IMG/VR virus record: IMGVR_UViG_3300035199_000360 | Coordinates: 1-22,748 of that record | DNA: 22,748 nt | Strand: one strand, 5' to 3' | Source of the DNA: a virus | Part shown: positions 1 to 18,000 of the stretch, piece after piece | Numbering within the stretch: the first letter of the stretch is position 1 | Layout of the letters: each line of letters begins with the position of its first letter | Notes under the pieces: generated by a model | Told to the model about the DNA's origin: nothing | What the model saw: the letters and a program-made list of their open reading frames with translations, nothing else | The model's database searches: none | Program-made: the position numbers and the translations under genes

Positions 1-867
1 ATAAAAGCACAAAATGAATATGTAATTAATAATGCCGGCGGTTATGTGGTGTTTGGAACCGATCGAACTGGAACACAGGCCGATGGAATGGGCGCCCCCG
101 GCGCCCAAAAATCATCCGCAATTGATATATGTGTCGGTCGAATGTCGGGAGTCAAGAAGGGGAAAGGACTCAAAGATGGTGCCATGGTTGGTGCCAGTTT
201 TTCAGGAGATGCAGCTCGAATTTATATAAGCCAACTTGTCAAGATTGATAAAGCATTCGGTCTAGCTGATGGAGTTTCGGGCAAAAAAGGAGCAATTCCT
301 GGCCTCGACGAAGGCGGCCCGGGCCCAGCATCGGGTATTGGAATCAAAGCAGATGATGTTCGGATTATCGGCCGCCGTAGCATTAAGATCGTAACGGGAC
401 GCCAACAAGGTGTTAAAGGATATGGCACTGGCGGCGAGCCGACCGCACTAGGCGACTGGATGCATCAGCGCGCCCCAACCATCGAATTGATAGCTGGAAA
501 CTATACAGAGTCAAGAATTGTCTTCGGGGGTCTAAAGAACCCAGTCGAACGAATTAAGACCCTTCAACGGGCGTGTTTAGGATCCAACACCCGAGACGGC
601 TTTAAAGAGTTAAATGCCATCGTTGGCCAGATCTGGTCGGCTGTGTATAATCTAGCTCTTATTCAAACATCGTGGAATGGCGTACTAGGAGTGGATCCTT
701 TCCGGCCGTGGGTCGCCGCGGCCGCGCCTGTCGTCGGGTGCGGTAATCTTTCAAAGGTGTTAGCAAGCTTGTATCGAACAAAGATTAATTCAATGTTCTG
801 GGAAGTAAACTACTGCGAAGAATATGGATATAAATATGTTTGCAGCACAAATGTCAAAATTAGTTAA
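1..867 (+). CDS. Phage virion structural protein, C-terminal part (possible baseplate hub or spike-associated)
   Basis: The reading frame is open from base 1, so the gene begins left of the window and 288 codons are visible. A GTG at 46 is only an internal valine. The visible protein is glycine-rich with short beta-type segments: YVVFGTDRTG at the left end, SAIDICVGRM near residues 38-47, AARIYISQ near 71-78 and a block ADDVRIIGRRSIKIVTG near 117-133. That last block resembles the repeated strand pattern in gp5/VgrG-type spike and beta-helix proteins. The last ~110 residues look helical (VERIKTLQRACLG, ELNAIVGQIWSAV) and end in a STNVKIS tail. I recall similar proteins as uncharacterised structural proteins of marine myoviruses; a hub or spike role is inference from the repeats and from the wedge genes downstream. 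It ends 13 bases before the next gene. It could instead be a tail-fibre or decoration protein. Confidence 0.6.
   Translation: MKAQNEYVINNAGGYVVFGTDRTGTQADGMGAPGAQKSSAIDICVGRMSGVKKGKGLKDGAMVGASFSGDAARIYISQLVKIDKAFGLADGVSGKKGAIPGLDEGGPGPASGIGIKADDVRIIGRRSIKIVTGRQQGVKGYGTGGEPTALGDWMHQRAPTIELIAGNYTESRIVFGGLKNPVERIKTLQRACLGSNTRDGFKELNAIVGQIWSAVYNLALIQTSWNGVLGVDPFRPWVAAAAPVVGCGNLSKVLASLYRTKINSMFWEVNYCEEYGYKYVCSTNVKIS
829..836 (+). promoter_or_regulatory. Possible T4-type late promoter (TATAAATA)
   Basis: An exact match to the T4 late-promoter octamer TATAAATA lies inside the 3' end of the upstream gene, 44 bases before the start codon at 881. Initiation a few bases downstream would leave a leader of about 35-40 bases that includes the Shine-Dalgarno site. 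In T4, such octamers are read by gp55 sigma with gp33/gp45; whether this phage has that system cannot be seen here. The same bases encode part of GYKYVC, and roughly one chance match per strand is expected in a window this size, so this is only a candidate. Confidence 0.35.
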
Positions 868-880: not shown

Positions 881-3800
881 ATGGCAGAGTCTAAGTTTTT
901 AAAATGGCAGGATATGGACAGTGATGGGCTCATCGACGTTTGCGATGATCTTATCATGGAGAAGCCACTACCGTGTCCTTCTAAATGTATACCAAATCCA
1001 GTAGCGATTACTCCGAATTGGAAGAAAGAGCCAAGTTTAGCCCCGTGGATAAACAAGAAAACGTGCTACTACGAGATAGTGAAAGAAACTCACTATACCA
1101 CCACGGTCCCCGAAGAATTGTTAGAGGGGGATGAAGTAGATGAGGGAAAGGTGCGCGAAGCCTTGAATGCTCGAGCACTGGAATTTGTTCCAGAGGTAAT
1201 CGAAACACTACTGATGGAAACCAATAAGGCTGACAGCGTTACTAATATCAACGCAGTTAGTGCCGACCTCCAATTTCACAAATATGATTTAGGCGTCCGA
1301 AAAGCAAATCGGCTTAAATTATTATTTAGAGTTCCGTTTGACACAATTGATCCGCTAGAAGAGGCGGAGGACGACGGCCCGATCCCAGAAGATGAAAAGC
1401 CAGGGTGGGTGTCAGTAGAATACTCGGCCGCTGATCTTTCCACTAAATTAATCACAGTCCGCCGGGGCCTAAATATGATGGGTCGCTATGTGAAGGTATA
1501 CCGCGCCATCGACGGCGGAAATGTTAAATTTTTAGAAGATGACCGCCTTTTTAATCTAGAAAATTATGGAGACCCTTGTTTGTTCACCCCTAATGGTTCT
1601 ATATTAGCAAAAATGCAGAATGAATTAGAATCTTTCATGAACGATCGTAATTTACAAATTCCCGGAATTGGCAATAATTCGTCATTTGGCGCCACCTTGG
1701 CCTCTCCATTCGCATCTATTACAAAAGATAATATTACGAGAATCAAGTTTGAATCTAAAGATTATAAATTAAAACAAATTGTTTTTTGGACAGACGGTTG
1801 TGGCGAAAAGGCCTTCTATTTAAATAAGAAATTAGCGCCTCTTTTAAGATCTGAAAACTGGTCAGACATAACCGCGGTAGGCTACATCTCTCAGCTTTAT
1901 AAGATGGATGCTGCCCTAACCGCACGAAAGCCGCCAGAGTGGCAAGATTTTATTATCGAATACACTTATCCTAAAATTTATGCAACAACTAATCCGGGCG
2001 ATATTAGTCCTTGGAACAAAACATCATCATGCATCCAAGACGCGCTTGACAATGAGTTGAAAGAATTAGGCCAAGATATTTTTGACGAAGTTCTCAATAT
2101 CGGGGATGTAATCGCATATCAATTTAGAAATGGCCTTTGTCGGTACAACATGGAAGAATTGCGAGACATGGAGATGGACTACGGTATCGCAGACACTATC
2201 AATCCCGGTAGCAAAAAGAAACACAGCATGATGGCCATGGCTAAAATGCAAGCTTTCAAAGAACTGGCGGAAAGTGATCAGGTATTTGCTGCATTATGCG
2301 CTCGTATTTTGGGAGATTCGCTTGGGTGGAAAAATGTTACTCAACAAATGGATGATATGTATGAATATGGTCTCGAGAGAATAAAAGTATGCGGCCTTTT
2401 TGATCTCGGCCTTGATGCAATTAAGTGCCTATTAGGAGGCCTCACGCTGGAACAAGCTCTGAGTAGCATGCTAAAGGCGGCCCTGGCAGCCATGAACATT
2501 GAAAATTTTGGAGACTTATTCATAGGGCTCCCGGCCGGCAAACAAGCTGAACTCGACGCACTAGTTAAGAAGAACTTTGAAAAAGGGAACCTGTTTAGAC
2601 CCGATTCTGAAATGCAACAGTATTCTGATGCACTAGCAGCACCCGGAACAGAATACAAGGGCGACGGTGAATCGATTGAAGATACACCGCTCACCTCTCT
2701 TGGATCCGGCACCCTAGGCACCGGCATGAAACTTACAAAGCCGTGGGAAGATCCCGTGGTAGTTAGCGAAGATCACAATAAGCGTTCTAATATGGATCAG
2801 TGGTCAGACTCGTCATCTGCACGCCGGTCACTATCCGATCAAATAGCATCCGGCCGCGCTTCTGACGATAACTTAGATCCAACTTTAGTAATGGATTTAT
2901 ACATTCAAGGTCTCTTGGAAGTATATCAAGACAACTATCTTGAATTGTTGGATGAACTGAACAAGTTCCCAGGCGCCGAACTGATTAGCGCTTTAATCGC
3001 TTTGTTTGATTGTCCAATGCCTCCTCTCTTTAATCCAAGCATTGCTGATTTTATGAAGTCTTTTGGTCTTCCTTTCTGTCGTGATATGAGAGAGATCCGG
3101 ATCCCACGAATGTGGGATCCCAGTGAGTGGTATCCGGATTTTTGTGACTTTATGAAATGGCTGTGGGACCAGTTCAAAATAGCAGTAAAACAAGCAGTTT
3201 TCAATATACTGATTTTGATTCTTGTTAAGATTTGTCAAATTCTTGGAGATGCGATCTGCAAAGCTTTAGAAACAGTTGGCAATATTGCCGCCGCGATGCC
3301 CGCACTATTGGCTGGAAACCAGCAGATTCGTAATATTATTCGCGACTCTATTTGTGGCCCCGATGCGACTGATGAAATGATCGATAACACAATGATTGAC
3401 CTATTTGCAAAATTAGGCCCCGGGGCAGCAGCCTTGGCCAATCAAGAATCAGTTATTAAGTTTGTAGAAGACTTATCTTCTTCGACCACTCGTAGAGAAT
3501 TGGCTGAAGCTTTTGAGGGCCGTCCCTCACAAGAGTTCCTTGAAGTGTCGAGGCAGTTGATAGAATATGAATACCCAGAGTTTAAGGCCGGCCTAGGCAA
3601 TCCGGATCAACTAACGAGTCTGTTTAGAAATACCGGCGCAATGATGCCGGCACAAGCCCGCCAAGATTTGAAAGATTTCCTTAATGAACTACCTGACGAC
3701 GACTTTTTTCCTGCCAATCCTACCCTGTGCTTGTCTCCCAAAAAGCAAGAAGATTTTGCAGCATTAAGGTGTGAGCTTTTGGCCGGCCAGCACCGCACAT

Positions 3801-6800
3801 CTACTGGACAATGTGAAGACTCGTTCAGAGATCTGATAGACGAGATGAAGGGAAATGTAACCGACTTAACTGCAATGATGAGTGGTGCACCCGGAGGCCC
3901 GGGCGGAGATGGTGCCTTTGAAGATTTTGTAATGCAAAATATGCCTAAGCTATTTTCTGAACCCGGATGTGACGATGGGCTTTTACCAGACATGCCAGAG
4001 GCTACTAAAACAGTCGCCTCGTCAGCGCTAGGTAATGATTTCGAAATGCTAAAAATAGACTACTCCAAGGATATGCTTGGAAACGGCGGCCTTTTTGCCA
4101 CCAACAGCGATTGGGGATTCATGAACATGATCCTGTCAGATACGAAAGGAAATCCTTTAACAGCACATCATCGTCTCGGGCACAATAGGAACAATTATGT
4201 CGACTTCGCATCAAATCTGATAAATGGAGGAGAAGCATCAACAGGGTTCTTCGCCTTTATGCAGGGAAATTCCAAATTTAATGATCAAAGAGGGCAGTTT
4301 CCTTCATATGTTGGAGAGTGGCTGATGCGTCAGCTTTTATGTGCCGGCGGAGTTACTGATGACTTGGACGAAGCAGACATGTTCGACAATGGCGAAACAT
4401 ATAATCTTTTCCCGATTCAGAGTCCCGGCGGCTGGGCGAAAGACCTGAAAAATGGAGAGTCAGATGTCATCGACGGCAGGACAAGCTTTAGCTACAATGC
4501 CGGAAACACATGGGATCCCGGTGGTGCTTGGTCTGTCACGTGGGAGGACCTAGACTTTAACCAAGGGTGGGGAGTTAATGTCGACCTCATGCAAATTCCT
4601 GATTTTGGATACAACACTCCTATTTCAGTCGACTGGGACGGAGAAAAAATTGTTATAGAAGAAAAGGGCCGCAAAAAATATCCAGATATGATTTTAAATT
4701 ATCAAGACAATGCAGCCGGCTTGAGAGAGGGTTGTAACCGCGGCCGCAACAAAAATAGTTCATCCGGCGATGAGGGAAGTTTTTCTTTCTCGAGCGGCGA
4801 AGATATGGACTCTAGCTGGAGTTACGGATTTGAAATACTGTATTTTAGCGGAGACATGGTAGATGATTCATCTTTCGATTCTTCAGGAGAAGAAAGTGAA
4901 CCGGTCGAATTGCCCGGCCCCGAAGGCGAATATGATTTAACAAAAGACATGTCCCCGGAAGAGAAGGCTGAATATGAGGCTGCGGTAAGAAGCAGCAACC
5001 CTGATGCAATCACCAATGTTCAGGACGGAGTTAAACGTAATCGCGCAGACGACAATGTTCGTATTAAAATTGTAGAAAAAATGAATACATCTGCCAACGT
5101 CGAATCGCCCCTGTCAGAAATGATGGCCGAAGATATGGATAAGTCCGACGGGTTTGACCTCCCAACTTGGATAGAACAGGTGCCCATTGTTGGTTGGGTG
5201 TTACAGGCCGTGGTTAATATATTTACAAAACCTTTTTCCAGCTTGATTCGACCAGCTAGCGCAATCGGCGCCCCCAACGACGACGGAGAGACAATTGTTT
5301 TGAACGAGAGATATGAATTTTTGGCTGTAGATAATGGCCTTGATGGAATTGATTTGTCTCAATATCCTGAGTTTTTAAAATGCTTCACTTCTCATACCGC
5401 ACACTCTCCGCAGGTTGTGATGTTGTCAGAACTAGCAGGGATCGACAAGGAGTCTGCTTTGACTTCTGTTAATAGTTTTATGGATAAATTCTTCAAAGAT
5501 TGGGCCAAAGAGATTGGGACCAATCAAAACGGCTGGTTATACGGAGCAAAATTTGATTATCTACTTCCGTCCGATACAGATTATGTGGCCTCCTATGGCA
5601 GTAAATATGATACATCTTACCCCACTCCAAGAATGTACGACACAATATCGATAACAGAAACAGATACCGATGGCGATACGTCTACCCGGCCAGTAAGAAA
5701 TCGCGATATGATCATGGGGCAGTCTCGTGATCAGTACATGAACGAAGTGAATGGGACCCCCGAATCCACCAGAGTATATTACCTTAACCCAGGAAACTAT
5801 GGAGGATCATATGTTAATCCTCCCATCCACATCAAACCACTGCAATTTGGAGGATGGATGGGCCTTGTCCAAGTTATGTTCCCAGAACTTAGCCCATGCA
5901 AGCCCCAGAGAACAGATTTAGTTAATTTTGGAGAAATTCAGCAAAAAATAGACAGCAGAATCTCTAAAATACCAGAAGATCCTCGCCTGAAACAAGGGCC
6001 CGATTGTGCACTAGAGGTTCCGTATAACCGAATTCTAGACCGCGCCGGCAAGACCGGCTTAATGGGAGTTATTGAGGCGGCCATTAGAATTTTTGCTAGT
6101 ACTCATTTCCTAAAAGGCATGCCCACATTCTCTCGTATTCAGCCGAAATTCCCAGAGAATTTTAGTAATATTTATTCTCAATACATCGTGGAAATTATGG
6201 AGGAGAGATTCAAAGAAGCTCAGCATCCGTTTTGGGAAATGTTTAACCTATTTTCCGATCAAGAGTTCTGGTATGCATTCTTGGAACAATCAGTTCAGTT
6301 TTATGCATGGCGCTTGGACAACGGAGAAATAGAAAATCCGTCAGCATCAGTCTTAAATGCTTTGAGAAGGCTGAATGATTATCAAGAGAGATATGATTTT
6401 CCATATGGCGAGGATCTAATAGACGCAAAACAGATGAAAGACGCACACTGGCTTCAGACGCTTAAGGGATATCGTTTTGATAAAAACCTCGAAGGCGTCG
6501 TCGAAACCGAAGAAGATGCTAAATTGGTTCTTGCTGAATTGGTTGCTGAACAACTTACAATAATGGGTGATCGTCTCGTTAGTAATCTTCGGGCCCAAGG
6601 GTATATCCCGACGGTGTATGATCTGGATTATTGGATTTTCCAACATCAATGCGCCGGCAGCGAGATAAAGATCGCTGGACCCAAGTTCATAGAAGAGCCT
6701 GTTGGCCTTCCGACGCCTGATAATCCAGATCCTGCAGGCGCCGGCGATGAGTGGCCAGGTCCCTATTATACCGCCGGCGGCGAATTTCGAGTGGCTGCGG

Positions 6801-8221
6801 ATGGCGATCTTGATAATGGCTTTGAATTGGGAGACGAATACATAGGCTTTTATTTTGGCTATGAAGAATCAACTGAGGATGGAGCGCTCCAGGGGGATAT
6901 AGTTTACGTCGTTGGAGATCCCGCTGGCGGATTCCCCTTTCCGATAGAAGGAGAAAGTATTACCGACGTCGCCGACGTGATTAGACCCTTGGCGACCAAG
7001 ATCAAGGTTGTCTCCGAGCAAGTAAAGAAGCAAACTTACTCTGAAGATCTCCCGGCTCACAAAGCACAACACAGCAAAGACGGCGACCGTGATAAAACAG
7101 GGTTAGTGACGACTCTTATAGATCTTGGAGATGTCCCGGAATATGGAACCGCATCAACATCAGGCGACTATCCGTTTGCTCTTGAAAAGTTTATCTCAAT
7201 TGAGGGGACAAAAATGTCATCCAGTAGCGCACTCTCCGTTATTATGGGCTCTAATGATAATGCATTGCTGATGTCAGAAGCATATCCGGGCCCGGCCGGA
7301 AATAGATTGAGACAGGTAAGAAACTCTGCCGGTATTGTGGTGGGCGTCGAAGGAGAGATGGGGGTGAGATATGGCCTACAATTTTACTTCTTACATGCCG
7401 GCTCAAAGATACCGATTGCGGATGTGTCAGTAAATGCATTAGATTTGCCAATTGCTGCAACTCCTCCGTTTGATGGAAGCTCCAAACTACTCCTGTGTCT
7501 GTTAAATATGATGAAATCACATCCTCAATATAGATTGATGACAAGCTATATTTTTCCCATGAAAAAGATTACGTCTACTCTCGCAGTATATAATGATATG
7601 GGTTTCTTATCTGCCATTGGAGAAGTGACAGTTGGCCGCGGCGACTGGGACAGATATGTGCCCATGGGCGATGGGGTATTTAGTTTCAACGGACCTAAAT
7701 CTGACACAGAAGGCGACTGGATCAATAGTGATATTAAGGGCGTACGCTCAAAACCCGGAAGCATAGCCTTCATAAGTGAGGACGAATCAGAAATCGAAGT
7801 GGAAGATCCTTATTGGGGCGACGGGGGAATTCTCCGTCCGGACGGCGACGAACCATACTGGCTTAAGATTAAAACTTTGAATCAGGGTAAAAGTTTCGTC
7901 GGAGGCAATGAGGGCTGGGTGCACCACAAAAACAGACAGCCTGGCTGGTTTGGAGGCATCGGCATAATGGAATGGGACTCTTGGGATAGGGTCTTATTAA
8001 GAAATTCCGTTGCGCGCATTAAGAGGATGTTTAAGGGCTATTATAATTCTCGTGATTGGCAACCGGGAGATATAGATAAATTCCCGGCCGGCGCCGTTTT
8101 CATTAAGAACCTAAAGAACAGAATGATGCCCAACCCTGCTATGGGAATTGTACCATGGTGGAAGAGGAACAGAGTCCGCTCCACTCCCTTTAACGATAAA
8201 GGTGCTTTGTGTGACAAATAA
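881..8221 (+). CDS. Giant uncharacterised phage structural protein (2446 aa)
   Basis: Function unknown; its place between a spike-like gene and gp25/gp6 suggests a virion protein at or near the baseplate. ATG at 881 follows a good AGGGG site. Residues 11-23 (DMDSDGLIDVCDD) match a calcium-binding loop of EF-hand/thrombospondin type-3 form, followed by CPSKC (32-36) and Cys62. About residues 685-760 hold a Cys/Pro-rich block (KFPGAELISAL, FDCPMPPLFNPS, GLPFCRD), then a hydrophobic segment around 772-800. Residues about 1293-1355 are a Ser/Asp/Glu-rich linker, and a second hydrophobic stretch lies at 1434-1448. A helical block near 1716-1753 contains LDRAGKTGLMGVIEAAIR and STHFLKGMPTFSRI. The C-terminus is basic (PWWKRNRVR). 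I recall this block order from unnamed proteins of marine phages. There is no recognised enzyme motif and no coiled-coil pattern typical of a tape measure. The frame is intact over 7.3 kb. Confidence 0.75.
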   Translation: MAESKFLKWQDMDSDGLIDVCDDLIMEKPLPCPSKCIPNPVAITPNWKKEPSLAPWINKKTCYYEIVKETHYTTTVPEELLEGDEVDEGKVREALNARALEFVPEVIETLLMETNKADSVTNINAVSADLQFHKYDLGVRKANRLKLLFRVPFDTIDPLEEAEDDGPIPEDEKPGWVSVEYSAADLSTKLITVRRGLNMMGRYVKVYRAIDGGNVKFLEDDRLFNLENYGDPCLFTPNGSILAKMQNELESFMNDRNLQIPGIGNNSSFGATLASPFASITKDNITRIKFESKDYKLKQIVFWTDGCGEKAFYLNKKLAPLLRSENWSDITAVGYISQLYKMDAALTARKPPEWQDFIIEYTYPKIYATTNPGDISPWNKTSSCIQDALDNELKELGQDIFDEVLNIGDVIAYQFRNGLCRYNMEELRDMEMDYGIADTINPGSKKKHSMMAMAKMQAFKELAESDQVFAALCARILGDSLGWKNVTQQMDDMYEYGLERIKVCGLFDLGLDAIKCLLGGLTLEQALSSMLKAALAAMNIENFGDLFIGLPAGKQAELDALVKKNFEKGNLFRPDSEMQQYSDALAAPGTEYKGDGESIEDTPLTSLGSGTLGTGMKLTKPWEDPVVVSEDHNKRSNMDQWSDSSSARRSLSDQIASGRASDDNLDPTLVMDLYIQGLLEVYQDNYLELLDELNKFPGAELISALIALFDCPMPPLFNPSIADFMKSFGLPFCRDMREIRIPRMWDPSEWYPDFCDFMKWLWDQFKIAVKQAVFNILILILVKICQILGDAICKALETVGNIAAAMPALLAGNQQIRNIIRDSICGPDATDEMIDNTMIDLFAKLGPGAAALANQESVIKFVEDLSSSTTRRELAEAFEGRPSQEFLEVSRQLIEYEYPEFKAGLGNPDQLTSLFRNTGAMMPAQARQDLKDFLNELPDDDFFPANPTLCLSPKKQEDFAALRCELLAGQHRTSTGQCEDSFRDLIDEMKGNVTDLTAMMSGAPGGPGGDGAFEDFVMQNMPKLFSEPGCDDGLLPDMPEATKTVASSALGNDFEMLKIDYSKDMLGNGGLFATNSDWGFMNMILSDTKGNPLTAHHRLGHNRNNYVDFASNLINGGEASTGFFAFMQGNSKFNDQRGQFPSYVGEWLMRQLLCAGGVTDDLDEADMFDNGETYNLFPIQSPGGWAKDLKNGESDVIDGRTSFSYNAGNTWDPGGAWSVTWEDLDFNQGWGVNVDLMQIPDFGYNTPISVDWDGEKIVIEEKGRKKYPDMILNYQDNAAGLREGCNRGRNKNSSSGDEGSFSFSSGEDMDSSWSYGFEILYFSGDMVDDSSFDSSGEESEPVELPGPEGEYDLTKDMSPEEKAEYEAAVRSSNPDAITNVQDGVKRNRADDNVRIKIVEKMNTSANVESPLSEMMAEDMDKSDGFDLPTWIEQVPIVGWVLQAVVNIFTKPFSSLIRPASAIGAPNDDGETIVLNERYEFLAVDNGLDGIDLSQYPEFLKCFTSHTAHSPQVVMLSELAGIDKESALTSVNSFMDKFFKDWAKEIGTNQNGWLYGAKFDYLLPSDTDYVASYGSKYDTSYPTPRMYDTISITETDTDGDTSTRPVRNRDMIMGQSRDQYMNEVNGTPESTRVYYLNPGNYGGSYVNPPIHIKPLQFGGWMGLVQVMFPELSPCKPQRTDLVNFGEIQQKIDSRISKIPEDPRLKQGPDCALEVPYNRILDRAGKTGLMGVIEAAIRIFASTHFLKGMPTFSRIQPKFPENFSNIYSQYIVEIMEERFKEAQHPFWEMFNLFSDQEFWYAFLEQSVQFYAWRLDNGEIENPSASVLNALRRLNDYQERYDFPYGEDLIDAKQMKDAHWLQTLKGYRFDKNLEGVVETEEDAKLVLAELVAEQLTIMGDRLVSNLRAQGYIPTVYDLDYWIFQHQCAGSEIKIAGPKFIEEPVGLPTPDNPDPAGAGDEWPGPYYTAGGEFRVAADGDLDNGFELGDEYIGFYFGYEESTEDGALQGDIVYVVGDPAGGFPFPIEGESITDVADVIRPLATKIKVVSEQVKKQTYSEDLPAHKAQHSKDGDRDKTGLVTTLIDLGDVPEYGTASTSGDYPFALEKFISIEGTKMSSSSALSVIMGSNDNALLMSEAYPGPAGNRLRQVRNSAGIVVGVEGEMGVRYGLQFYFLHAGSKIPIADVSVNALDLPIAATPPFDGSSKLLLCLLNMMKSHPQYRLMTSYIFPMKKITSTLAVYNDMGFLSAIGEVTVGRGDWDRYVPMGDGVFSFNGPKSDTEGDWINSDIKGVRSKPGSIAFISEDESEIEVEDPYWGDGGILRPDGDEPYWLKIKTLNQGKSFVGGNEGWVHHKNRQPGWFGGIGIMEWDSWDRVLLRNSVARIKRMFKGYYNSRDWQPGDIDKFPAGAVFIKNLKNRMMPNPAMGIVPWWKRNRVRSTPFNDKGALCDK
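3099..3120 (+). repeat. Perfect 9-bp inverted repeat (hairpin) inside the 2446-aa gene
   Basis: GGATCCCAC (3099-3107) and GTGGGATCC (3112-3120) are exact reverse complements separated by a GAAT loop, so the DNA or mRNA could form a 9-bp stem with six G-C pairs. It contains two GGATCC sites and lies about 55 bases before the codons of the hydrophobic segment. It is coding sequence (IPRMWDPSE) and has no T run after it, so it is not a terminator. Confidence 0.6.
3182..3290 (+). other. Hydrophobic segment of the 2446-aa protein
   Basis: Codons 768-803 encode AVKQAVFNILILILVKICQI and then a further Leu/Ile/Ala-rich helix with two cysteines and few charges. The FNILILILV core is about 9 residues of uninterrupted hydrophobicity, followed by AICKALETVGNIAAAMPALLAG. 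It could be a membrane-inserting helix or a buried helix of a multimer. Confidence 0.55.
4757..4945 (+). other. Acidic serine-rich low-complexity linker of the 2446-aa protein
   Basis: Codons about 1293-1355 encode runs such as SSSGDEGSFSFSSGEDMDSS and SSFDSSGEESEPVELPGPEG, dominated by Ser, Asp, Glu and Gly. Such composition usually marks a flexible, exposed linker; here it separates the Cys/Pro-rich N-terminal half from the second hydrophobic stretch and C-terminal half. Confidence 0.6.
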
Positions 8222-8257: not shown

Positions 8258-8626
8258 ATGGCTTCATTTAGCGTAGCACTACCAATTTCCAGAGATAGCG
8301 ATGACGGATTTACCATGTTGAAGAGCTTTAGAAAGCTTATTAAACAAAATTTAAAAATGCTTTTATTGACGGCTCCTGGCGAGAGAGTGATGGAGCCTGA
8401 ATTTGGAGTCGGAATGAGGAACTATCTATTTGAAAACTTCACTTCGTCGACGTATAGCAAAATAGAAACAAATATCAGAAAACAAGCATCCATATACATG
8501 CCAAACATCAACATACAGGAAGTTCAATTCTCAGAGGGCGCCATAGATCAGAATAGAGTAAATTTAAGAATTATATTCTCAGTGCCCGCCATAGGAATAA
8601 CCGAAATGTTGGAGCTAACTACTTAA
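8258..8626 (+). CDS. 25: Baseplate wedge protein, gp25/gpW (TssE-like) family
   Basis: At 122 residues the protein is close to T4 gp25 (132) and P2 gpW (115). The family signature is clear: LLLTAPGERVMEPEFGVG at about residues 36-53, then MRNYLFEN, with a helix around MLKSFRKLIKQNLKM before it and amphipathic strands after it (INIQEVQFSEG, NRVNLRIIFSVP). In contractile injection machines this protein joins gp6 and gp7 equivalents in the inner baseplate and touches the first sheath ring, so it helps start sheath assembly. The gp6-like gene follows 15 bases downstream, the same partnership seen across contractile systems. The old 'lysozyme' label of the family is not a supported activity. The gene has its own likely promoter and ribosome site. 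The symbol is by family homology. Confidence 0.92.
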   Translation: MASFSVALPISRDSDDGFTMLKSFRKLIKQNLKMLLLTAPGERVMEPEFGVGMRNYLFENFTSSTYSKIETNIRKQASIYMPNINIQEVQFSEGAIDQNRVNLRIIFSVPAIGITEMLELTT

Positions 8627-8641: not shown

Positions 8642-10438
8642 ATGTCAGATCAACAAAAAAAAGTACTCCCCATAAACTATACGAATAGGGAGTTTGAGAG
8701 CATCAGGGGAGACTTGATGCAACTGGCGGAAAGGTTTTACCCGGATTCATTCCAAGACTTTAGCGAAGCTTCTTTCGGCTCGATTATGATAGATTCGGTA
8801 GCGTATGTCGCCGATCAGCTTTCGTTTTATTTAGATTATAACGTTAATGAGTCCTTCCTTGATACGGCATATCAATTTGATAATGTACTGCGCCATGGCC
8901 GAATTTTAGGATACAAATCTCAAGGGCGCCCTTCGACATATGGTTCGGTTGCCTTATACGTGGTTGTGCCGGCTAGCCAGACTGCTCTTGGTCCCGATAG
9001 CGCATATATCCCTTTATTGAAAAGAGGATCAAGATTTACATCGACTAACGGCCTCAATTATGTTTTAACCGAAAATATCGATTTTGCAAATTCTACCAAC
9101 CCGGTTGTGGTTGCGCGCATGGATCCAACCACTGGCGCCCCCACTCACTTTGCCATTAAGAGTTACGGAACTGTTGTTTCGGGCTATTTTAGTCAAGAAA
9201 CAGTATCCACTGGCCCATATGAGCGATTTAAGACCTTAAGGCTTTCAAGCCCGAACATCTCTGAAATAATTTCGGTATTTGATTCAAATGGTAACGAGTA
9301 TTATGAAGTAGATTATTTGGCTCAAGACATGGTTTATAAAGAATTGTCAAACATAAACTATAAGAATGACAATGTACCATCTATTTTAAAGCCTTATCTG
9401 GTTTCACGTAAATTTGTAGTTGAAAGGACCAGAAACGACGTGTTCCTACAATTTGGAAGCGGCGACAGTGCCGGCACAAATGTGGTAGCCGAACCACAAA
9501 ACGTAGCAATGGATGTATTCGGAAAAGATTACATATACAATACCACCTTTGATCCTACCCGGTTGATGCAAAATCAAACCTTTGGCATATCACCGGCAAA
9601 CACAACCTTAACGGTTACATTTAGAGTGACCAATCCGACTAACTCAAATTTATCAACTGGAGGTTTAACGGAGGTATCTAATGCTAGAATTGAATTTGCG
9701 GACAGGAATATACTAACAGAGTCCAAAATACGCGCCGTCGTTTCTTCCGTAGAAGTATATAACGAGGCGCCCATTGTTGGGAGCGTGAGTAACATCAACA
9801 CTGGCGAGCTTAAGCGAAGAATATTCGATACGTTTCCTACTCAAAACCGAGCAGTCACACAAGCAGACTACGAAAATGTTGCATATAGAATGCCGGCCAA
9901 ATACGGTTCTATAAAAAGAACCTCTGTACAAAGAGATCCAAGTTCTCAAAAAAGAAATTTAAATATGTACATTGTTTCCGAAGACGCGTTCGGAAAACTA
10001 ACAACTTCCAACGACACCATTAAAACTAATTTAAAAACATGGCTAAATCAGTATAGAATGATTAACGATACAATAGATATTTTGGATCCGTACATTATTA
10101 ATTTAGGAGTCGACTTTTTGGTTAAGACAGTAGTTGGGACTAACAAATACTCAGTCCTTGATGCTTGCGTAGACTCTTTGAAAGATTTATATAAGGTTGC
10201 ATTCTTTATTGGGGAGCCAATCTACATCTCAGACGTTTATAGTCGCCTTAAGGATGTTAATGGAGTATTAGATGTGGTCAAAGTTAAATTGGTCAATAAG
10301 ACGGGAACGAGCTATTCGGGATCGACGATCGATATAAATAAAAACTTATCTCCTGATGGTACTTATCTCGTCGTTCCTAAGAATGCAATTGTTGAAATTA
10401 AATATCCAGACACAGATATCAAGGGAAGAATTAGATAA
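8642..10438 (+). CDS. 6: Baseplate wedge protein, gp6/gpJ (Baseplate J-like) family
   Basis: The 598 residues compare with 660 in T4 gp6 and about 300 in P2 gpJ, so it is of the T4 type. The N-terminal region (about 10-60: INYTNREFESIRGDLMQLAE, FGSIMIDSVAYVADQLSFYL) carries the helical start typical of gp6, with LRHGRILGYKSQGRPS next. Residues about 397-430 (FPTQNRAVTQADYENVAYRM and AKYGSIKRTSVQRD) are the best signature of the Baseplate_J fold core. The C-terminal third has the expected strand/helix repeats and ends with NAIVEIKYPDTDIKGRIR. Gp6 dimers form the continuous inner ring of the baseplate and hold gp25 and gp7. The stop codon overlaps the next start by one base, so translation is probably coupled. 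The symbol is by family homology. Confidence 0.92.
   Translation: MSDQQKKVLPINYTNREFESIRGDLMQLAERFYPDSFQDFSEASFGSIMIDSVAYVADQLSFYLDYNVNESFLDTAYQFDNVLRHGRILGYKSQGRPSTYGSVALYVVVPASQTALGPDSAYIPLLKRGSRFTSTNGLNYVLTENIDFANSTNPVVVARMDPTTGAPTHFAIKSYGTVVSGYFSQETVSTGPYERFKTLRLSSPNISEIISVFDSNGNEYYEVDYLAQDMVYKELSNINYKNDNVPSILKPYLVSRKFVVERTRNDVFLQFGSGDSAGTNVVAEPQNVAMDVFGKDYIYNTTFDPTRLMQNQTFGISPANTTLTVTFRVTNPTNSNLSTGGLTEVSNARIEFADRNILTESKIRAVVSSVEVYNEAPIVGSVSNINTGELKRRIFDTFPTQNRAVTQADYENVAYRMPAKYGSIKRTSVQRDPSSQKRNLNMYIVSEDAFGKLTTSNDTIKTNLKTWLNQYRMINDTIDILDPYIINLGVDFLVKTVVGTNKYSVLDACVDSLKDLYKVAFFIGEPIYISDVYSRLKDVNGVLDVVKVKLVNKTGTSYSGSTIDINKNLSPDGTYLVVPKNAIVEIKYPDTDIKGRIR
10333..10340 (+). promoter_or_regulatory. 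Second exact TATAAATA octamer (weak late-promoter candidate)
   Basis: TATAAATA occurs inside the gp6-like gene, 97 bases before the start of the 522-aa gene. It fits the T4 late-promoter octamer but encodes part of IDINKN and is expected about once per strand by chance. Confidence 0.2.
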
Positions 10439-12006
10439 TGGGAATAAAAAGGTACAAAGCGAATGCAGACAATACCATCGTTAATGCATATCAGCCAAAT
10501 TTACGCACCCGCGGAACCGGCGCCAACTGTGGCGAGTCGGACGTATTGGAATGCTTTTCTATCTATGATCGCACGCTTCTTAGTGGTTCGAAAGGGGATG
10601 GCACTGTAGCGTCTTCCGAATTATCGCGTATTATTATTAACTTTCCAATTGCGGATATCAAAACAGATCGAACAAATGGTAAAATTCCGGCCTCCGGTAG
10701 CGTTAGCTTTTATCTAAGATTGTTCAATGCACAAACTTCGAAGACGGTCCCGCGCAATTTTAAATTAGTTGTTAATCCCATGTCTCAATCTTGGGAAGAA
10801 GGAAACGGAGTTGATCTAGAGACCTACAAAGATCAAACGAAGGGCGGCATCGGCTCAAATTGGATTTATGCATCCAGCGGAAGCAAGTGGCAATCTATAG
10901 ATGGAGATGATATAGTAGGAGGCTCCTACAAGACCGGCTCATCAGACCCTGCGTTCACTCAGTCATTCACCACCGGTCTTGAAGATTTGAAAGTTGATAT
11001 ATCCGATCTGGTGGAAAAATGGGTATCCGAGGACATTGAACGCTATGGGGTCGGTATTCGCCTTTCTTCGAGTTATGAAGCCTACTTTTCTAGTTCTTTG
11101 GGCGAGAATGTATCTAGCGGGAGTGTGCTCGACAATTTAGACGGCGCCAAAACTTCGTATTACACCAAGAGATTCTTTGCTCGAGGCAGTCAATATTTTT
11201 TCAAGCGCCCAACAATCGAGGCCCGCTGGAATTCAGTAACTCGCGATGACCGGGGAGACTTTTATTATAGTAGTTCTCTCGCACCGGCCGACGATAACTT
11301 GAATGTGTTGTATTTATACAACTATGTTCGCGGCCGCCTGGTCAACATACCTTCAATTGGCACCGACAACATTTACGTAACCTTGTATTCTGGCTCTTCT
11401 GCTCCCACTGGCTCAAAGCTTGTCCTCTACGATGGATATACCAATGTTACCGGTGGACATGTTTCAACTGGCATCTACTCTGCATCTATAGCGATTACGG
11501 CCGCTACAACGCCCCTTACTGACATTTTTGACGTGTGGCACGATGATAGTGGCACTCAATTTTTTACAAGCTCTGTTAAGCCCAAGACTCTGATGGCGCA
11601 TGTTAATACACGCGAGCCGACTTATTACATGAACATTACCAACATGAGGGATCGTTATCGCTCCGATGAAACGGCAAGATTTAATTTATATGTCCGAGAA
11701 AAGAATTGGAAACCCACGATATACACTGTTGCTTCCGAGCGCGTAGAGACAATTCCAGTGAACAGCGCCTCATATCGAGTATATCGCACGTATGACGGTC
11801 TCGAAGCCATACCTTATGGAACCGGTAGTGACTTCTGTACAGGTCTATCATATGATATTTCAGGCAATTATTTTGATTTTGATATGAACTTGTTGGATCC
11901 TGGATATGCGTACGCCCTCAAATTCGCCTTCTATGATCCTGAGTTAAAATCCTGGACAGAACAAAACGAAACCTTTAAGTTTAGAGTAGAGAGTTATGAG
12001 TATTAA
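10438..12006 (+). CDS. Baseplate-associated protein with DNRLRE-like beta domain (522 aa)
   Basis: ATG at 10438 shares its A with the upstream TAA, and AAGGGAAG lies 9 bases before it. The N-terminal ~275 residues follow the pattern of DNRLRE-type beta-sandwich domains: SRIIINFPIADI (about 63-74), SVSFYLRLFNA, then NPMSQSWEEGNGVD (about 113-126), a Gly/Ser loop with a conserved Trp, and LKVDISDLVEKWVSE (about 183-197) before YGVGIRLS. Members of that family are mostly carbohydrate-associated surface proteins. Residues about 285-400 read as an Ig-like beta region (NIYVTLYSG, KLVLYDGY), and the last ~110 residues (SYRVYRTYDGLEAIPYG, DFDMNLLDPGYAYALKFAFY) form another compact beta domain. Its place after gp6 is where T4 has gp7 and gp8, but I see no sequence tie to either. 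It probably belongs to the outer baseplate or the base of a fibre; glycan binding is inference. Confidence 0.65.
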   Translation: MGIKRYKANADNTIVNAYQPNLRTRGTGANCGESDVLECFSIYDRTLLSGSKGDGTVASSELSRIIINFPIADIKTDRTNGKIPASGSVSFYLRLFNAQTSKTVPRNFKLVVNPMSQSWEEGNGVDLETYKDQTKGGIGSNWIYASSGSKWQSIDGDDIVGGSYKTGSSDPAFTQSFTTGLEDLKVDISDLVEKWVSEDIERYGVGIRLSSSYEAYFSSSLGENVSSGSVLDNLDGAKTSYYTKRFFARGSQYFFKRPTIEARWNSVTRDDRGDFYYSSSLAPADDNLNVLYLYNYVRGRLVNIPSIGTDNIYVTLYSGSSAPTGSKLVLYDGYTNVTGGHVSTGIYSASIAITAATTPLTDIFDVWHDDSGTQFFTSSVKPKTLMAHVNTREPTYYMNITNMRDRYRSDETARFNLYVREKNWKPTIYTVASERVETIPVNSASYRVYRTYDGLEAIPYGTGSDFCTGLSYDISGNYFDFDMNLLDPGYAYALKFAFYDPELKSWTEQNETFKFRVESYEY

Positions 12007-15000
12007 AAAGCTCTTCGGAGCCTCTGATAAAGAAAAAAATTATCTATCAAATACCGACACTAAAGATGCGATCAATGAAGAGGTCGAGTCCACTAGAAAT
12101 TTAAAACAGCTCTCCATTCGCGACGATCAAAATATTCCGCACATTGATTATTCAAATCCTGCGAACTTCGCTAGATTTGGATCCGCTTACCTCTACTATA
12201 AATCTGCTATAGAGAGGATTTTGGATTACTATCCCTATGACGGATCCGGTGCAGAAATCCATCAGTTCTATAACGAAAGCCTGAATATAGAAAAATACAT
12301 TTTAGATAACCTTTATCCTCGCGCCCACGGGTATATCACCGTCAACGTTGATGGATATGGTACTTCGGAACCTACAAGGGTCGATGGTTACGGCGCGCCC
12401 GCAGCATCCTATCAAGAATACATTACTTTCTACGGGGGCCCCAATACTGGCTCTGGAGGGGACACAATTCAGCAGTTAATGCCGGATCCCACAGACAGTA
12501 AGTTCCAATATGCCAATATATATGATGAGGATATATATCAAACTGAGGGCCTCCCCTCAGATTATGGATCCGGAACAAGAACGTCCAACCTTCGATCGAA
12601 CTTTGATGATGGAGTTACGGTTGAGTTTTGGTTAAAAACTGGGTCACTGGGTGACGACTTTTCTGAGGGAATTCTTTCCGACAAACAAGTTGTTTTTGAT
12701 CTGTGGAACAATGAAGACACCGCTAGCGCTGATTATGGGCGCATAAGGGTTGAACTAACGAGTTCTGTGTCGTGCGATGCAAACGAAACCCCATTTTTCC
12801 TTTCGGTTCGATCGGGCTCCGACGGCATAAATACAGTCGCTTTAGGCCAGAATTTGGATAGCGCCCAGCTAACTGATTGGAATCATTATGCTATTACCAT
12901 AAAGAACTCAGGCAGCAATTTAATATCTAAATTGTATATTAATGGAGGTCTCAATCACGAGAGAACCGATACCAGTGATGCTTTGGGAGAGCTTAAGTCA
13001 AAGAACATGACCGGTCGCATCGGAGCCCTCTTAACCGCCCCTGCCGGCACCGCCGCCACGGCCGGCGCCGGAAAACTCTCTGGGTCTATGGATGAGTTCC
13101 GCTTTTGGAAAGTCGCACGTAACGGCCAACAGATCGGCCGCAATTGGTTCACGCAAGTCCGCGGCGGTGTCAACACAGATATCGCAAACACCACATTAGG
13201 ACTATATTATAAGTTCAACGAGGGCATTACTGACGACACAAACATAGATCAAGTTGTATTAGACTACGGTGGTAGAATATGCAATGGTCTTTGGGCAGGA
13301 TATGGAAGCAACTCTAGAAACACAGGCTCAGCCATTTTGGAGGCCTCAGCATCCATTAAAGAATACAAAGATCCAATTATACGATCTCCTCATTATGCGG
13401 TAACCGATCTTAAAACCGGATTATTGGCCAGCGGATCATTCCACGATGCTAATACTAATTCTTCTTTCTTAAGTTTGGTTCCCGGCTGGATTTTAGACGA
13501 GCAAGACAGAGAAGAATTAAGTGACCTAAGCAATATCGCACACATTGCCGGCGCCTATTTTGATAAGCTGTATTTGCAAATTTCAGAACTTCCAAAATTG
13601 AGACAAATGAATTATGTTAGCGGTGCTTATAAGCCGTTCACTTTTGCTGAGCACTTGCCCCAGTCTCTTGGTCTTTATACTCCCGATCTTTTTGTCGATG
13701 CAAGTGTCATGGAGAGATTCGCCAACCGAACAGACACCGAGCTATTTGAGGGAAGCTTAGAAGAGGTTAAAAACTTAATTTATATTAATCTCTATAACAA
13801 CTTAACTAATATTTTTAAATCAAAAGGCACCGAAAAGGCAATTAAAAATGTTTTGAGATGCTTTAACATTGACGATAAATTATTAAGAGTGAGCGTAAAC
13901 TCAAACAATGCGGAGTATGTCCTCAAGAACAATCTACAACAAACCTTAATTAATAAAAATTGCTTGAACCTAAACGAGCAACAAAACATAGGAGGAGTTG
14001 TTTATCAGTCCTCCGACGGAGCCTCGTTCACCACCCAGGAGCGCGCCCATACACGCGGATATATTTCTGGATCCAACGATCACGAAGAACTCGGCCTAGG
14101 CTTTACGATGGAAACCAATGTAATATTTCCACATTATATGAAAAACAACGACAAGATAGCACGTGATTTTAACACAGTGTCTTTATTCGGGGCTGTTATG
14201 GTGGATACCGGTAGCACGAACAGTAAGACCGGTAAAGATACGACCACGTTGGCATACGATAAAGCCAATTTTCAAGTGCTTGCCGTTAGAGATTCTCAAT
14301 TTTCTAAAAATATACATTTTAAACTAACCTCTTCGTTGTCTCCCGGATTCGGAACTGAACTTACAAGCAGTACATATCTCAATGTTTATGACAATCAACT
14401 GTGGAACTTATCGGTCCGCCTGAAGCCTAATAAATATCCCTACGCCGGCTTTGTAAGCGGCGCCGCGATCACGGATGTCGCGACCACCTACGAGCTGATC
14501 TTTAAAGGAATTAATACAGAAAGCACCAACATAAACCAAAGCTTTAGAGTAACTGCGCCTGTCAGTAACGCCGTCGGCCGAGAATTTCTTAAAGCAGCTA
14601 AAAGAGCTTACGTCGGCGCCCAGAAAACAAATATAACAGGCAACTTAGTTTACCCCTCTGACGTTCTTATCTCTTCTACTAAATATTGGGCCCGCCATAT
14701 CGGCGATGACGATCTTCTGCAGCATACACTGGATCCAGAAAATATCGGTATTTCCGGCTCACTTCAAAATATATCGCCTTTTTCGACCACGCCACGAGAC
14801 GAATTCACAGACGATATTCTCAACAGTGATACTTTGGCCTTAAATTGGAACTTTATAGGACTTACGGGGTCTACAACGTCTCCCGGAGTGTTCACAACAG
14901 AAGACTATAGTTCGGGCTCACTTGAAGAAATCGCTACCCAGGGGTGGGTAGGTAAAGTCGCAGGCTATCGACACCCAGCCCGATCGGAAGGGTTTAATGT

Positions 15001-18000
15001 CTCAAACATCGATCGTAAGCATTTTAACTCCTATCGACTGATAAGCCCAGAACAAGTTGTATCATCTGATATGGTACAAATTTTTTCTGATAACGATGAG
15101 TTATTTCCTAATTTTAGACGAGAAGAGATTTTACCTAACTACATTTATACAATTGAAAAGAGCCTTTATAACGCCATTTCAGAAGACATGCTAGATTTCT
15201 TCGCCGGCGTTTTGGACTTTAATAACATAATTGGCCACCCCGTTAACCGATATCGAGCCCGGTATAAAGAGATGGAAAAGCTGAGAGAAATCTTCTTCAG
15301 AAGAGTCAATTCAGTCTCTGCAGTAGAAAAGTACATTAAATATTATAAATGGTTTGATGATACTCTTACTGAAATAATCTCACAACTAGTACCAGCTTCT
15401 TCTGAGTTCGTCAACGATGTTTTGAATGTTGTTGAGTCTCATGTGCTCGAGAGGAACAAATATAAATCAAAATTTCCAACATTGGATTTTATACGAGATG
15501 ACTTAGATAGTGTAATCATGGGTGTGCACGAAAGAGAATATCCTTGGTATGCGGGATCTGCTCCGCCCCCGGAGTCGCCACGACCTACCGATCAGCGCGA
15601 GTGGTTTTGGAAGCGCAGAGCGATGCGCACAGCCACAGAGATCTCTGCTACTCTCCCGGATGGAACTGCCGCAACAATAATAAATCAACAACGAGAACAA
15701 TTTAAAGATACCATCTATGCCAGGCCTCACTTTAGCATGTCTCTGGCACAAGTATCAACGGTTGGTGGTCAGCGATATTTAATTCCTGATCTAGATCTAC
15801 AAAGATTTACAACCACATATGCCTTCAAAGTTTCTGATATAGAAATGATAAGAGATTCAAATGTGCACGTTGGAACCAACTACTCCCCTCAAAAGAATAT
15901 TGAATTTTCGGCCGCCACATTTCGAAGTTTGAGCAAAATCGAGAGAGACAATAACACTTATATACCACTTAATGTCTTGTTGGCTACCTCCAAAGATATG
16001 GTTGAAATCCCGGAATTTAGAGACCCATCAGAACCAAAAGACAAGATTAAGAAACAAACGCGAGACTTTAAAGTTCTGTACGGCCCAGATTTTGGTGATG
16101 GGTTAACTTATCTCAATACAACGTCGCGTTATGCATTTCCTTTTAACATCGTTAGTTCATCTGTGAGGACAGGATTCAACACCGAAGTTGTAAGCAATTT
16201 GACTTCTGGTATTGAAATCACAAACCGGCACCATGAAGGCTGGGGCGAAGGAAACAATGTCGGCCTTCAAGGGCCCTTCACTCGCGCAAAGGTTGGTGGC
16301 CATCAATCACGGCATGTTCCACTAAACAAGGGCACTGACAATTGGATGACGCGCCCAGAAAAAGATAAAATTCTAATTGGCACCTGCGGCGGCTCATGGC
16401 CACAGGGCGCAGTAGGACTTACAGATCCTTTCTATCCCTACCCGGAAGCCAACGATATTGGCATGCCGCCCTACCCGTTAACAGCTGCTCAAGGAGCAAT
16501 ATATTACCGCGATCAGATCGCCCAGCGCCCGTTTAACCTCAAGAATATTCAGATAGTCACTGGCTCAAATGAACTTGGAAACTACACCTATAATTACGAG
16601 GTGGTTAGCTCAGTTGGTGCTCACTCTAATCCGCGTCAATTCATCGAAAGTCAACCTACTCTACCGACTGGTGCCTTCCAGCAGCGAGCGACAGCCTCCA
16701 CACAGATTAGAGGATTATGGGATATACATCGAACATCAGAAGAGCATTTTCAATGGATTTCAGAATATTCGACGGAATACTTAGATAACACCGCAAACAA
16801 GTCAATTATTGTGGGGAGATATAGAACCGCCGGCGGCATCGAACAAGAAACTCTGGGGTATAAAGGTTTCCGCGCTAGCGAATACTCTGTATACAATGCT
16901 GTCCCATACCGAAATCTCACAGTGCTTAAGCCAATGCAGCCCCCCTCTGGGGTCGTCGGTACCGATACACTATTCAGCACCCTGGGAAGTTCAACGCCAT
17001 CTGATATCAAGGTAATAGATATCCACAACCAGCCGTACGGCCTTAATGCCCATCAGGCGCGCCATACCGCACGATTTGGTAGAGACTCCCTGATAGTCAC
17101 AGGCACCAGCATGGCGACCAACGGACCCGGAGCATCTTATGATCAGTCTCCAGGCTGGCACAAAATTAACAGAAACAACAAGCAAATAGTGGCCAACTGT
17201 GGCGAAGAAACTATTCACTCAAACTCCAACACAGGCATTGCCAACTTGTCGGGGCTGTCTATGGGAACGGCCGTCAACTCTGGCAACACACAATATGGCA
17301 AGCTCTATCATTCGTCTTCCTTTGTGGATGGCGCCGGCACTCTTACCGCCACCACTTGGACGGTCGGATTATGGATTAAACCAAATGCCAATATTGGAAA
17401 CTACAGTAGTTTAGTGTCCCTAGGGGATAATGGAGCCTCCTCGAATAGAGATATTGCGCTAGATTTTGGTATCAAAGTAAACGCGAGTTATGATCGCTTG
17501 AGTCTGTGGTCCAAGTCTGATGCCGGAGACAAAGGGAAGTTTTATGGAGATATAGAATTAGTTCAAGGATCCTGGCAACATGTCGCATTCACGTGGAACG
17601 GCGCCCAAGGCACAACTCCAACCTTCTATGTGAACGGAGTGGCCGACACTACTAATACTGATCAGGCCGCCGGCGGTGCTAACGTGTCAGTAAACAGTGT
17701 GGGATCAGGGCAATCATATATTGGAGGAACCAATAGAGATTCATCGACTTCCCACAAGAGTCTTCCACAAATAGATATCGATGAAATTGTAATTTATGAT
17801 GAGGTTCTGACGGCCGCAGACATAAGCACTCTCTATGCCAACGGCGGAGCCCTTAATCTAACAAGCTCAATTGCACCTAAAACCGGATCTTTGGTTACGT
17901 GGATTCGTTGTGGCGATGTGGCCGGCGATCCGACAGAGGGTTCGGAGGTGGATGTAGCCGTTGCCGGCTATGCGGGATATTTCCACGATCAGATGGGAAA

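Follow-up and report, generated by a model that had tools for sequence, protein, structure and literature searches.

The analyzed window is the whole 22,748-bp stretch of DNA, which is a complete IMG/VR record; the virus itself is represented only by this 22.7-kb fragment. The gene encoding the giant protein P0001 is located between the end of the gene for a putative spike-like protein, P0005, and the genes for two baseplate wedge proteins similar to gp25 and gp6, which are followed by the ORFs of a 522-aa and a 3563-aa protein (Table 1). The spike role of P0005 is suggested by its sequence pattern and position, and in relatives the full-length protein comprises about 310–390 aa. The 522-aa protein is a distant counterpart of the product of a 369-aa Immutovirus gene that comes after gp6, and the 3563-aa protein has a short similarity to an Immutovirus protein of 1265 aa. 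The lectin domain of the 3563-aa protein was identified as Laminin_G_3 (1e-25, residues 1781–1944).

Table 1. Genes and protein regions of the window, followed by genes found in related records (coordinates of the respective record)
Feature	Position	Strand	Remarks
P0005, C-terminal part of putative spike-like protein	1..867	+	Directly upstream of the P0001 gene
P0001, 2446-aa giant protein	881..8221	+	ATG start, no internal stop
P0001 residues 40–370	998..1990	+	N-terminal alpha/beta region, confident; block pLDDT mostly 75–93
P0001 residues 380–1080	2018..4120	+	Mostly helical; holds most of the invariant Cys
P0001 residues 754–797	3140..3271	+	Predicted 44-residue helix, strongest hydrophobic stretch
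P0001 residues 953–1001	3737..3883	+	Helical hairpin with sliding Cys pair (C964–C978 in the window)
P0001 residues 997–2446	3869..8218	+	C-terminal half, high-confidence fold modelled on the homologue L049
gp25-like baseplate wedge protein	8258..8626	+	PF04965, 9.3e-15
gp6-like baseplate wedge protein	8642..10438	+	PHROG 219, 1.8e-16
522-aa protein	10438..12006	+	Weak DNRLRE-domain match
3563-aa protein	11996..22687	+	Concanavalin-A-like lectin domain
Laminin_G_3 domain of the 3563-aa protein	17336..17827
P0001 relative with early ORF end	L096:10001-16480
439-aa Amidase_2 protein	L002:7415-8734	+
Thioredoxin-like lipoprotein	G001:C1:12716-13312	-
Thioredoxin-like lipoprotein	G002:C1:27472-28083	+
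COX2	L002:6106-7113	+
COX2	G001:C1:172600-173607	-
Trypsin-like protease	G001:C1:24913-25653	-	Also in G002
Lipoprotein-like protein	G001:C1:25672-26760	-	Also in G002
528-aa ORF	G001:C1:58592-60178	-

The ORF of P0001 is genuine, uninterrupted and protein-coding. Open runs in 30 mononucleotide shuffles of the window reached at most 204 codons, versus 2446 aa for P0001, and the intact frame reported in an earlier sequence-only reading of the window is kept over its full length by relatives with 32–47% identity. Complete members of the family contain 2095–2459 aa. In IMG/VR, 284 relatives were confirmed by one profile scan and 324 by a second, separate one, and the best 80 of each set were retained; 119 non-redundant members were used for the analysis of cysteines. 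The family was found only in uncultured viruses. The sole match in species genomes was a single 4.6-kb contig of a Flavobacteriales MAG, which is too weak for naming Flavobacteriales as the host.

As the sequence-only reading had stated, P0001 could be assigned to no named family: searches in Pfam, PHROGs, NCBIfam and the PDB sequences gave no family match, and tblastn analysis with P0001 and P0007 against INPHARED (about 50,700 phage records) likewise gave none. Weak hits of P0001 to OTU deubiquitinases (E 0.06–0.2) were judged to be due to chance. The hhalign comparison of P0001 with eight T4 baseplate proteins (gp5, 5.4, 7, 8, 9, 10, 11 and 53) yielded probabilities of 0.1–0.7%, and the presence within P0001 of T4 gp53, the hub or the small Immutovirus gene was ruled out by the same program. 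No sequence or profile similarity was detected between P0001 and the gene occupying the same place in Immutovirus, and comparison of the two halves of P0001 with each other gave no signal of internal duplication.

Prediction of the structure by segments, which had been proposed together with the sequence-only reading, was successful mainly for the C-terminal half. AlphaFold2 models were built with 63 and 73 sequences. Residues 960–2131 of the homologue L049, corresponding to residues 997–2446 of the window protein, were modelled with a pLDDT of 85.2 and a pTM of 0.88, whereas the model of residues 1–1120 of P0001 was moderate (pLDDT 66.6), with confidence concentrated in residues 40–370. According to the Foldseek analysis, neither half has a match in the PDB with E under 0.001; Foldseek and VIA returned from the PDB only low-scoring helical or efflux-pump entries, with a Z of at most 6.0 on second look. 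The best neighbour of the N-terminal region, Lpp20, reached a Z of 6.0 over 95 residues only and was not accepted as a homologue. The C-terminal half is similar to the BFVD model A0A516M7H3_2 (Foldseek E 1e-31, TM 0.55–0.58, about 1100 residues) at 16% identity, this half alone being compared, and more weakly to A0A1B1IUZ9 (6.7e-8). A solved structure of this half would be informative, since its fold is predicted with confidence but matches no PDB entry.

The order of genes around P0001 is constant in metagenomic relatives, namely, P0005, P0001, gp25, gp6, the 522-aa protein and a 3563-aa type protein. The gp25 gene follows that of P0001 in all 88 testable loci and a P0005 homologue directly precedes it in 60 of 60, so that the position beside baseplate genes, described earlier as fixed, is indeed invariable. 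The distance to gp25 does not exceed 300 bp in 87 of the 88 loci. It is 488 bp in L096, where the ORF of the P0001 relative ends early through either an assembly error or a real truncation. In the L002 record, an Amidase_2 domain (3.2e-16) marks a 439-aa protein encoded upstream of the P0005 gene as a likely tail-associated cell-wall enzyme.

A gene of the 3563-aa type is present on every contig that extends beyond the 522-aa gene. The earlier suggestion that the 3563-aa protein may have P0001 as a second giant partner is supported only by this co-occurrence; the mirror-tree correlation between the two is modest (rho 0.37; 0.40 for P0005 and 0.28 for gp6 with P0001). The mean identity between members is 0.42 for P0001, which is as low as in P0005 (0.43) and far under that in gp6 (0.64). 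Such divergence could be expected of a protein serving mainly for host recognition, i.e., an adhesin on the tail tip. This role is highly improbable for P0001, in which the variation is spread over the protein, invariant residues occur throughout, and neither a lectin nor a carbohydrate-binding domain was detected, while the 3563-aa neighbour has one.

The affiliation of the source viruses was assessed using the gp25 and gp6 genes of the window and the 187-kb genome of the relative G001, which encodes a T4-type portal (Portal_T4, 5.9e-75), a large terminase (TerL phrog_2, 3e-52) and a tail sheath (phrog_23, 5e-63). Judged by terminase, the isolates closest to G001 are Immutovirus (47.5%) and Microcystis phage Mel-JY01 (44%). 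The source viruses are myoviruses of the Far-T4 type that are distant from both of these. Counterparts of the G001 head genes, sheath, tube, hub-like protein, gp25 and gp6 are all found in Immutovirus. Within the Far-T4 clade, Immutovirus, Mel-JY01 and the uncultured LR756508 were compared (PMC4360716, PMC7198788); these share the colinear head, sheath and gp25–gp6 modules, with terminases 44–48% identical, but carry in the place of P0001 a gene of 126–176 aa that is unrelated to it by HMM and hhalign. No P0001 relative was detected at 80 gp6 loci of the Immutovirus-like sister lineage, and where the gene upstream of gp25 is complete at these loci, it encodes 126–164 aa. The absence from the sister lineage indicates that P0001 is a lineage-specific addition or replacement. 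P0001 represents a large unnamed family that is characteristic of a widespread T4-like lineage of uncultured viruses.

The place of the tape measure in the tube/hub cluster of G001 is occupied by an 868-aa candidate, named by position only: it comes after the hub-like gene, in the same relative place as the annotated Immutovirus tape measure, to which it has no sequence match. This gene is about 65 kb away from that of P0001. Since the genes of the tube, the sheath and the tape-measure candidate are located elsewhere in the genome, P0001 appears to be an extra component.

The most informative feature of P0001, missing from the sequence-only reading and unexpected to a specialist, is its paired cysteines. 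Conservation of Cys, Pro and Trp had been pointed out earlier; it is strongest for Cys, where 20 of the 27 scored window columns (74%) are kept in at least 95% of members, versus 18% for Pro, 13% for Trp and 20% for Gly. Across the 119 non-redundant members, 21 columns hold Cys in at least 96% of the sequences. The counts given below exclude L057, which has an odd local sequence, and L096, which ends early.

Positions 964 and 978 both carry Cys in 51 members and neither does in 64, with no single occurrence (51/0/0/64; p 6.7e-34). For the pair 960–982, both Cys are present in 57 members, one of the two in one member each, and neither in 54. The two pairs are mutually exclusive (states of positions 960/964/978/982: 57 CxxC, 51 xCCx, 5 with none and 2 with a single Cys). 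The Fisher p-values ignore relatedness, and the counts on the tree are safer evidence: this pattern changed about 15 times, and 964 and 978 changed together in all 11 of their events. Co-variation was also found, in few members, for the pairs 880–916, 882–912, 513–812 and 290–778. Two pairs of conserved Cys are lost jointly, each in one event on the tree: 516 with 793 (L062 and L089) and 384 with 825 (L094 and L208). Among variable columns, a near-perfect partner (phi over 0.9) exists for 33% of Cys and 14% of Trp columns and for under 4% of those of every other residue.

The sums of the alternative positions are equal (960 + 982 = 964 + 978 = 1942), as they should be in an antiparallel hairpin, and the two pairs sit one helix turn apart. 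AlphaFold2 predicts antiparallel helices at 953–969 and 975–1001, consistent with this sum, yet the model uses the same alignment and is not independent. Gain and loss of Cys in twos was observed for 964–978, 960–982, 880–916, 882–912, 513–812, 516–793 and 384–825, and because its cysteines evolve in matched pairs, P0001 very probably carries disulfide staples. In the helical region, the bonded pairs would be 516–793, 384–825, 964–978 (in the window) and 960–982 (in other members). Not every Cys of P0001 is clearly paired; in the N-terminal part, single losses of Cys 32 and 62 occur in a few members and depart from the pairwise pattern.

These single losses, which are unlike a simple disulfide pair, and the possible four-Cys site formed by C21, C32, C36 and C62 would fit cysteines acting as ligands of zinc or an iron–sulfur cluster. 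Such an explanation of the Cys pairs is very unlikely: elsewhere the losses and gains occur in twos rather than fours, the helical part contains no CxxC motifs, and the swap by one helix turn between 960–982 and 964–978 is the classical behaviour of a two-helix staple. Two points against disulfide staples are that virions of tailed phages assemble in the reducing cytoplasm and that the proteins neighbouring P0001, in contrast to phage Milano, are poor in Cys. A search for the sulfhydryl oxidase Evr1_Alr gave no match, the controls being likewise unmatched.

The retention of cysteines distinguishes P0001 from the tail and head proteins of these viruses. Across G001, G010 and G013, it keeps 18 of 27 Cys at 35–36% identity, whereas none is kept in the MCP, tube, tape-measure candidate, gp25, gp6 or P0005, one of two in the sheath and one of ten in the 3563-type protein. 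Agrobacterium phage Milano has a contractile tail with disulfide bonds in the baseplate region, and its contraction needs reduction, at a cost of stability; nearly all its virion proteins have a high Cys content, and small subunits are joined by the bonds of the baseplate (PMC10811340, PMC10491603). Disulfide-dependent tails are already known from Milano and its relatives. Comparison of the Cys distribution shows that the bonds of Milano are spread across most virion proteins, whereas here, among tail and head structural proteins, only the one giant protein keeps many Cys, in contrast to a virion-wide network.

The best explanation, to which we assign a probability of about 60%, is that P0001 is a structural protein of the baseplate or tail tip, specific to this lineage of Far-T4 viruses, with a helical middle stapled by intrachain disulfides. 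The baseplate or tail-tip role is proposed because the gene is located between the spike-like gene and gp25/gp6 in every testable locus and because the genes of the tape-measure candidate, sheath and tube lie elsewhere. The T4 baseplate wedge and hub genes likewise keep company with gp25, gp6 and a spike-like gene, but nothing of comparable size is encoded at that place in T4. The earlier suggestion that P0001 is a major tail-tip component is plausible and partly supported, its presence in the virion being inferred from gene context.

Gene context alone does not distinguish virion parts from assembly factors. P0001 could act as a non-virion scaffold or assembly factor of the baseplate, translated with the wedge genes and absent from the particle; the T4 baseplate itself depends on non-structural proteins like gp51, which is annotated as a chaperone, and P0001 is Cys-rich next to Cys-poor virion neighbours. 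We consider this unlikely, as 2100–2450 aa would be an unusual size for such a factor and the strict pairing of Cys is more in keeping with a folded part that persists than with a transient factor.

A different role would follow if the hydrophobic helix 754–797 entered the host envelope, P0001 being an ejected or membrane-interacting tail protein, either tape-measure-like or channel-forming. The hydrophobicity of this helix peaks at residue 776 in the family mean and exceeds 1.6 on the Kyte–Doolittle scale in 69 of 85 members; the mostly helical middle and the adjoining spike gene also agree with this role. It is nevertheless quite improbable: G001 already has a tape-measure candidate in the tube/hub cluster (by position only), the C-terminal half of P0001 is predicted to be compact and confidently globular, its length varies among members from 2095 to 2459 aa, and disulfide staples would oppose threading through the tube.

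As a stapled structural protein, P0001 would be placed at the interface between the central spike and the gp25/gp6 wedge, as the gene order suggests. It would consist of the confident N-terminal alpha/beta region, the mostly helical middle held by intrachain bonds, which are probably disulfides rather than metal sites, and the confidently folded C-terminal half. The bonds would form mainly once the virion leaves the reducing cytoplasm for an oxidizing environment, and the staples may keep this very large tail-tip part rigid until infection. P0001 thus offers a testable case, drawn purely from sequences, for disulfides in a phage tail-tip protein. A further step, in which stapled P0001 would lock the tip in oxidizing seawater and reduction at the host envelope would loosen it and help to trigger contraction, is quite improbable.

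The relatives G001 and G002 encode a conserved exported thioredoxin-like lipoprotein with a WCGPC or WCPPC motif and a lipobox-like start; thioredoxin matches were found in 11 of the 14 records searched, 7 of them over the cut-off. This lipoprotein might act on the bonds of P0001 in the envelope of the infected cell, and in G001 it could equally serve the viral cytochrome c oxidase subunit II. The latter combines a transmembrane, a CuA-type and a cytochrome c domain (COX2 6.7e-20, COX2_TM 5.5e-11, Cytochrom_C 1.9e-8), is present in one of the 14 records, and is encoded just before the tail-amidase and spike genes. In addition, G001 and G002 encode an exported trypsin-like protease (Trypsin_2, 1.5e-16) adjoined by a lipoprotein-like protein that weakly matches von Willebrand A. 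The start of a 528-aa ORF of G001 resembles the GroEL chaperonin, this name being given from the sequence only.
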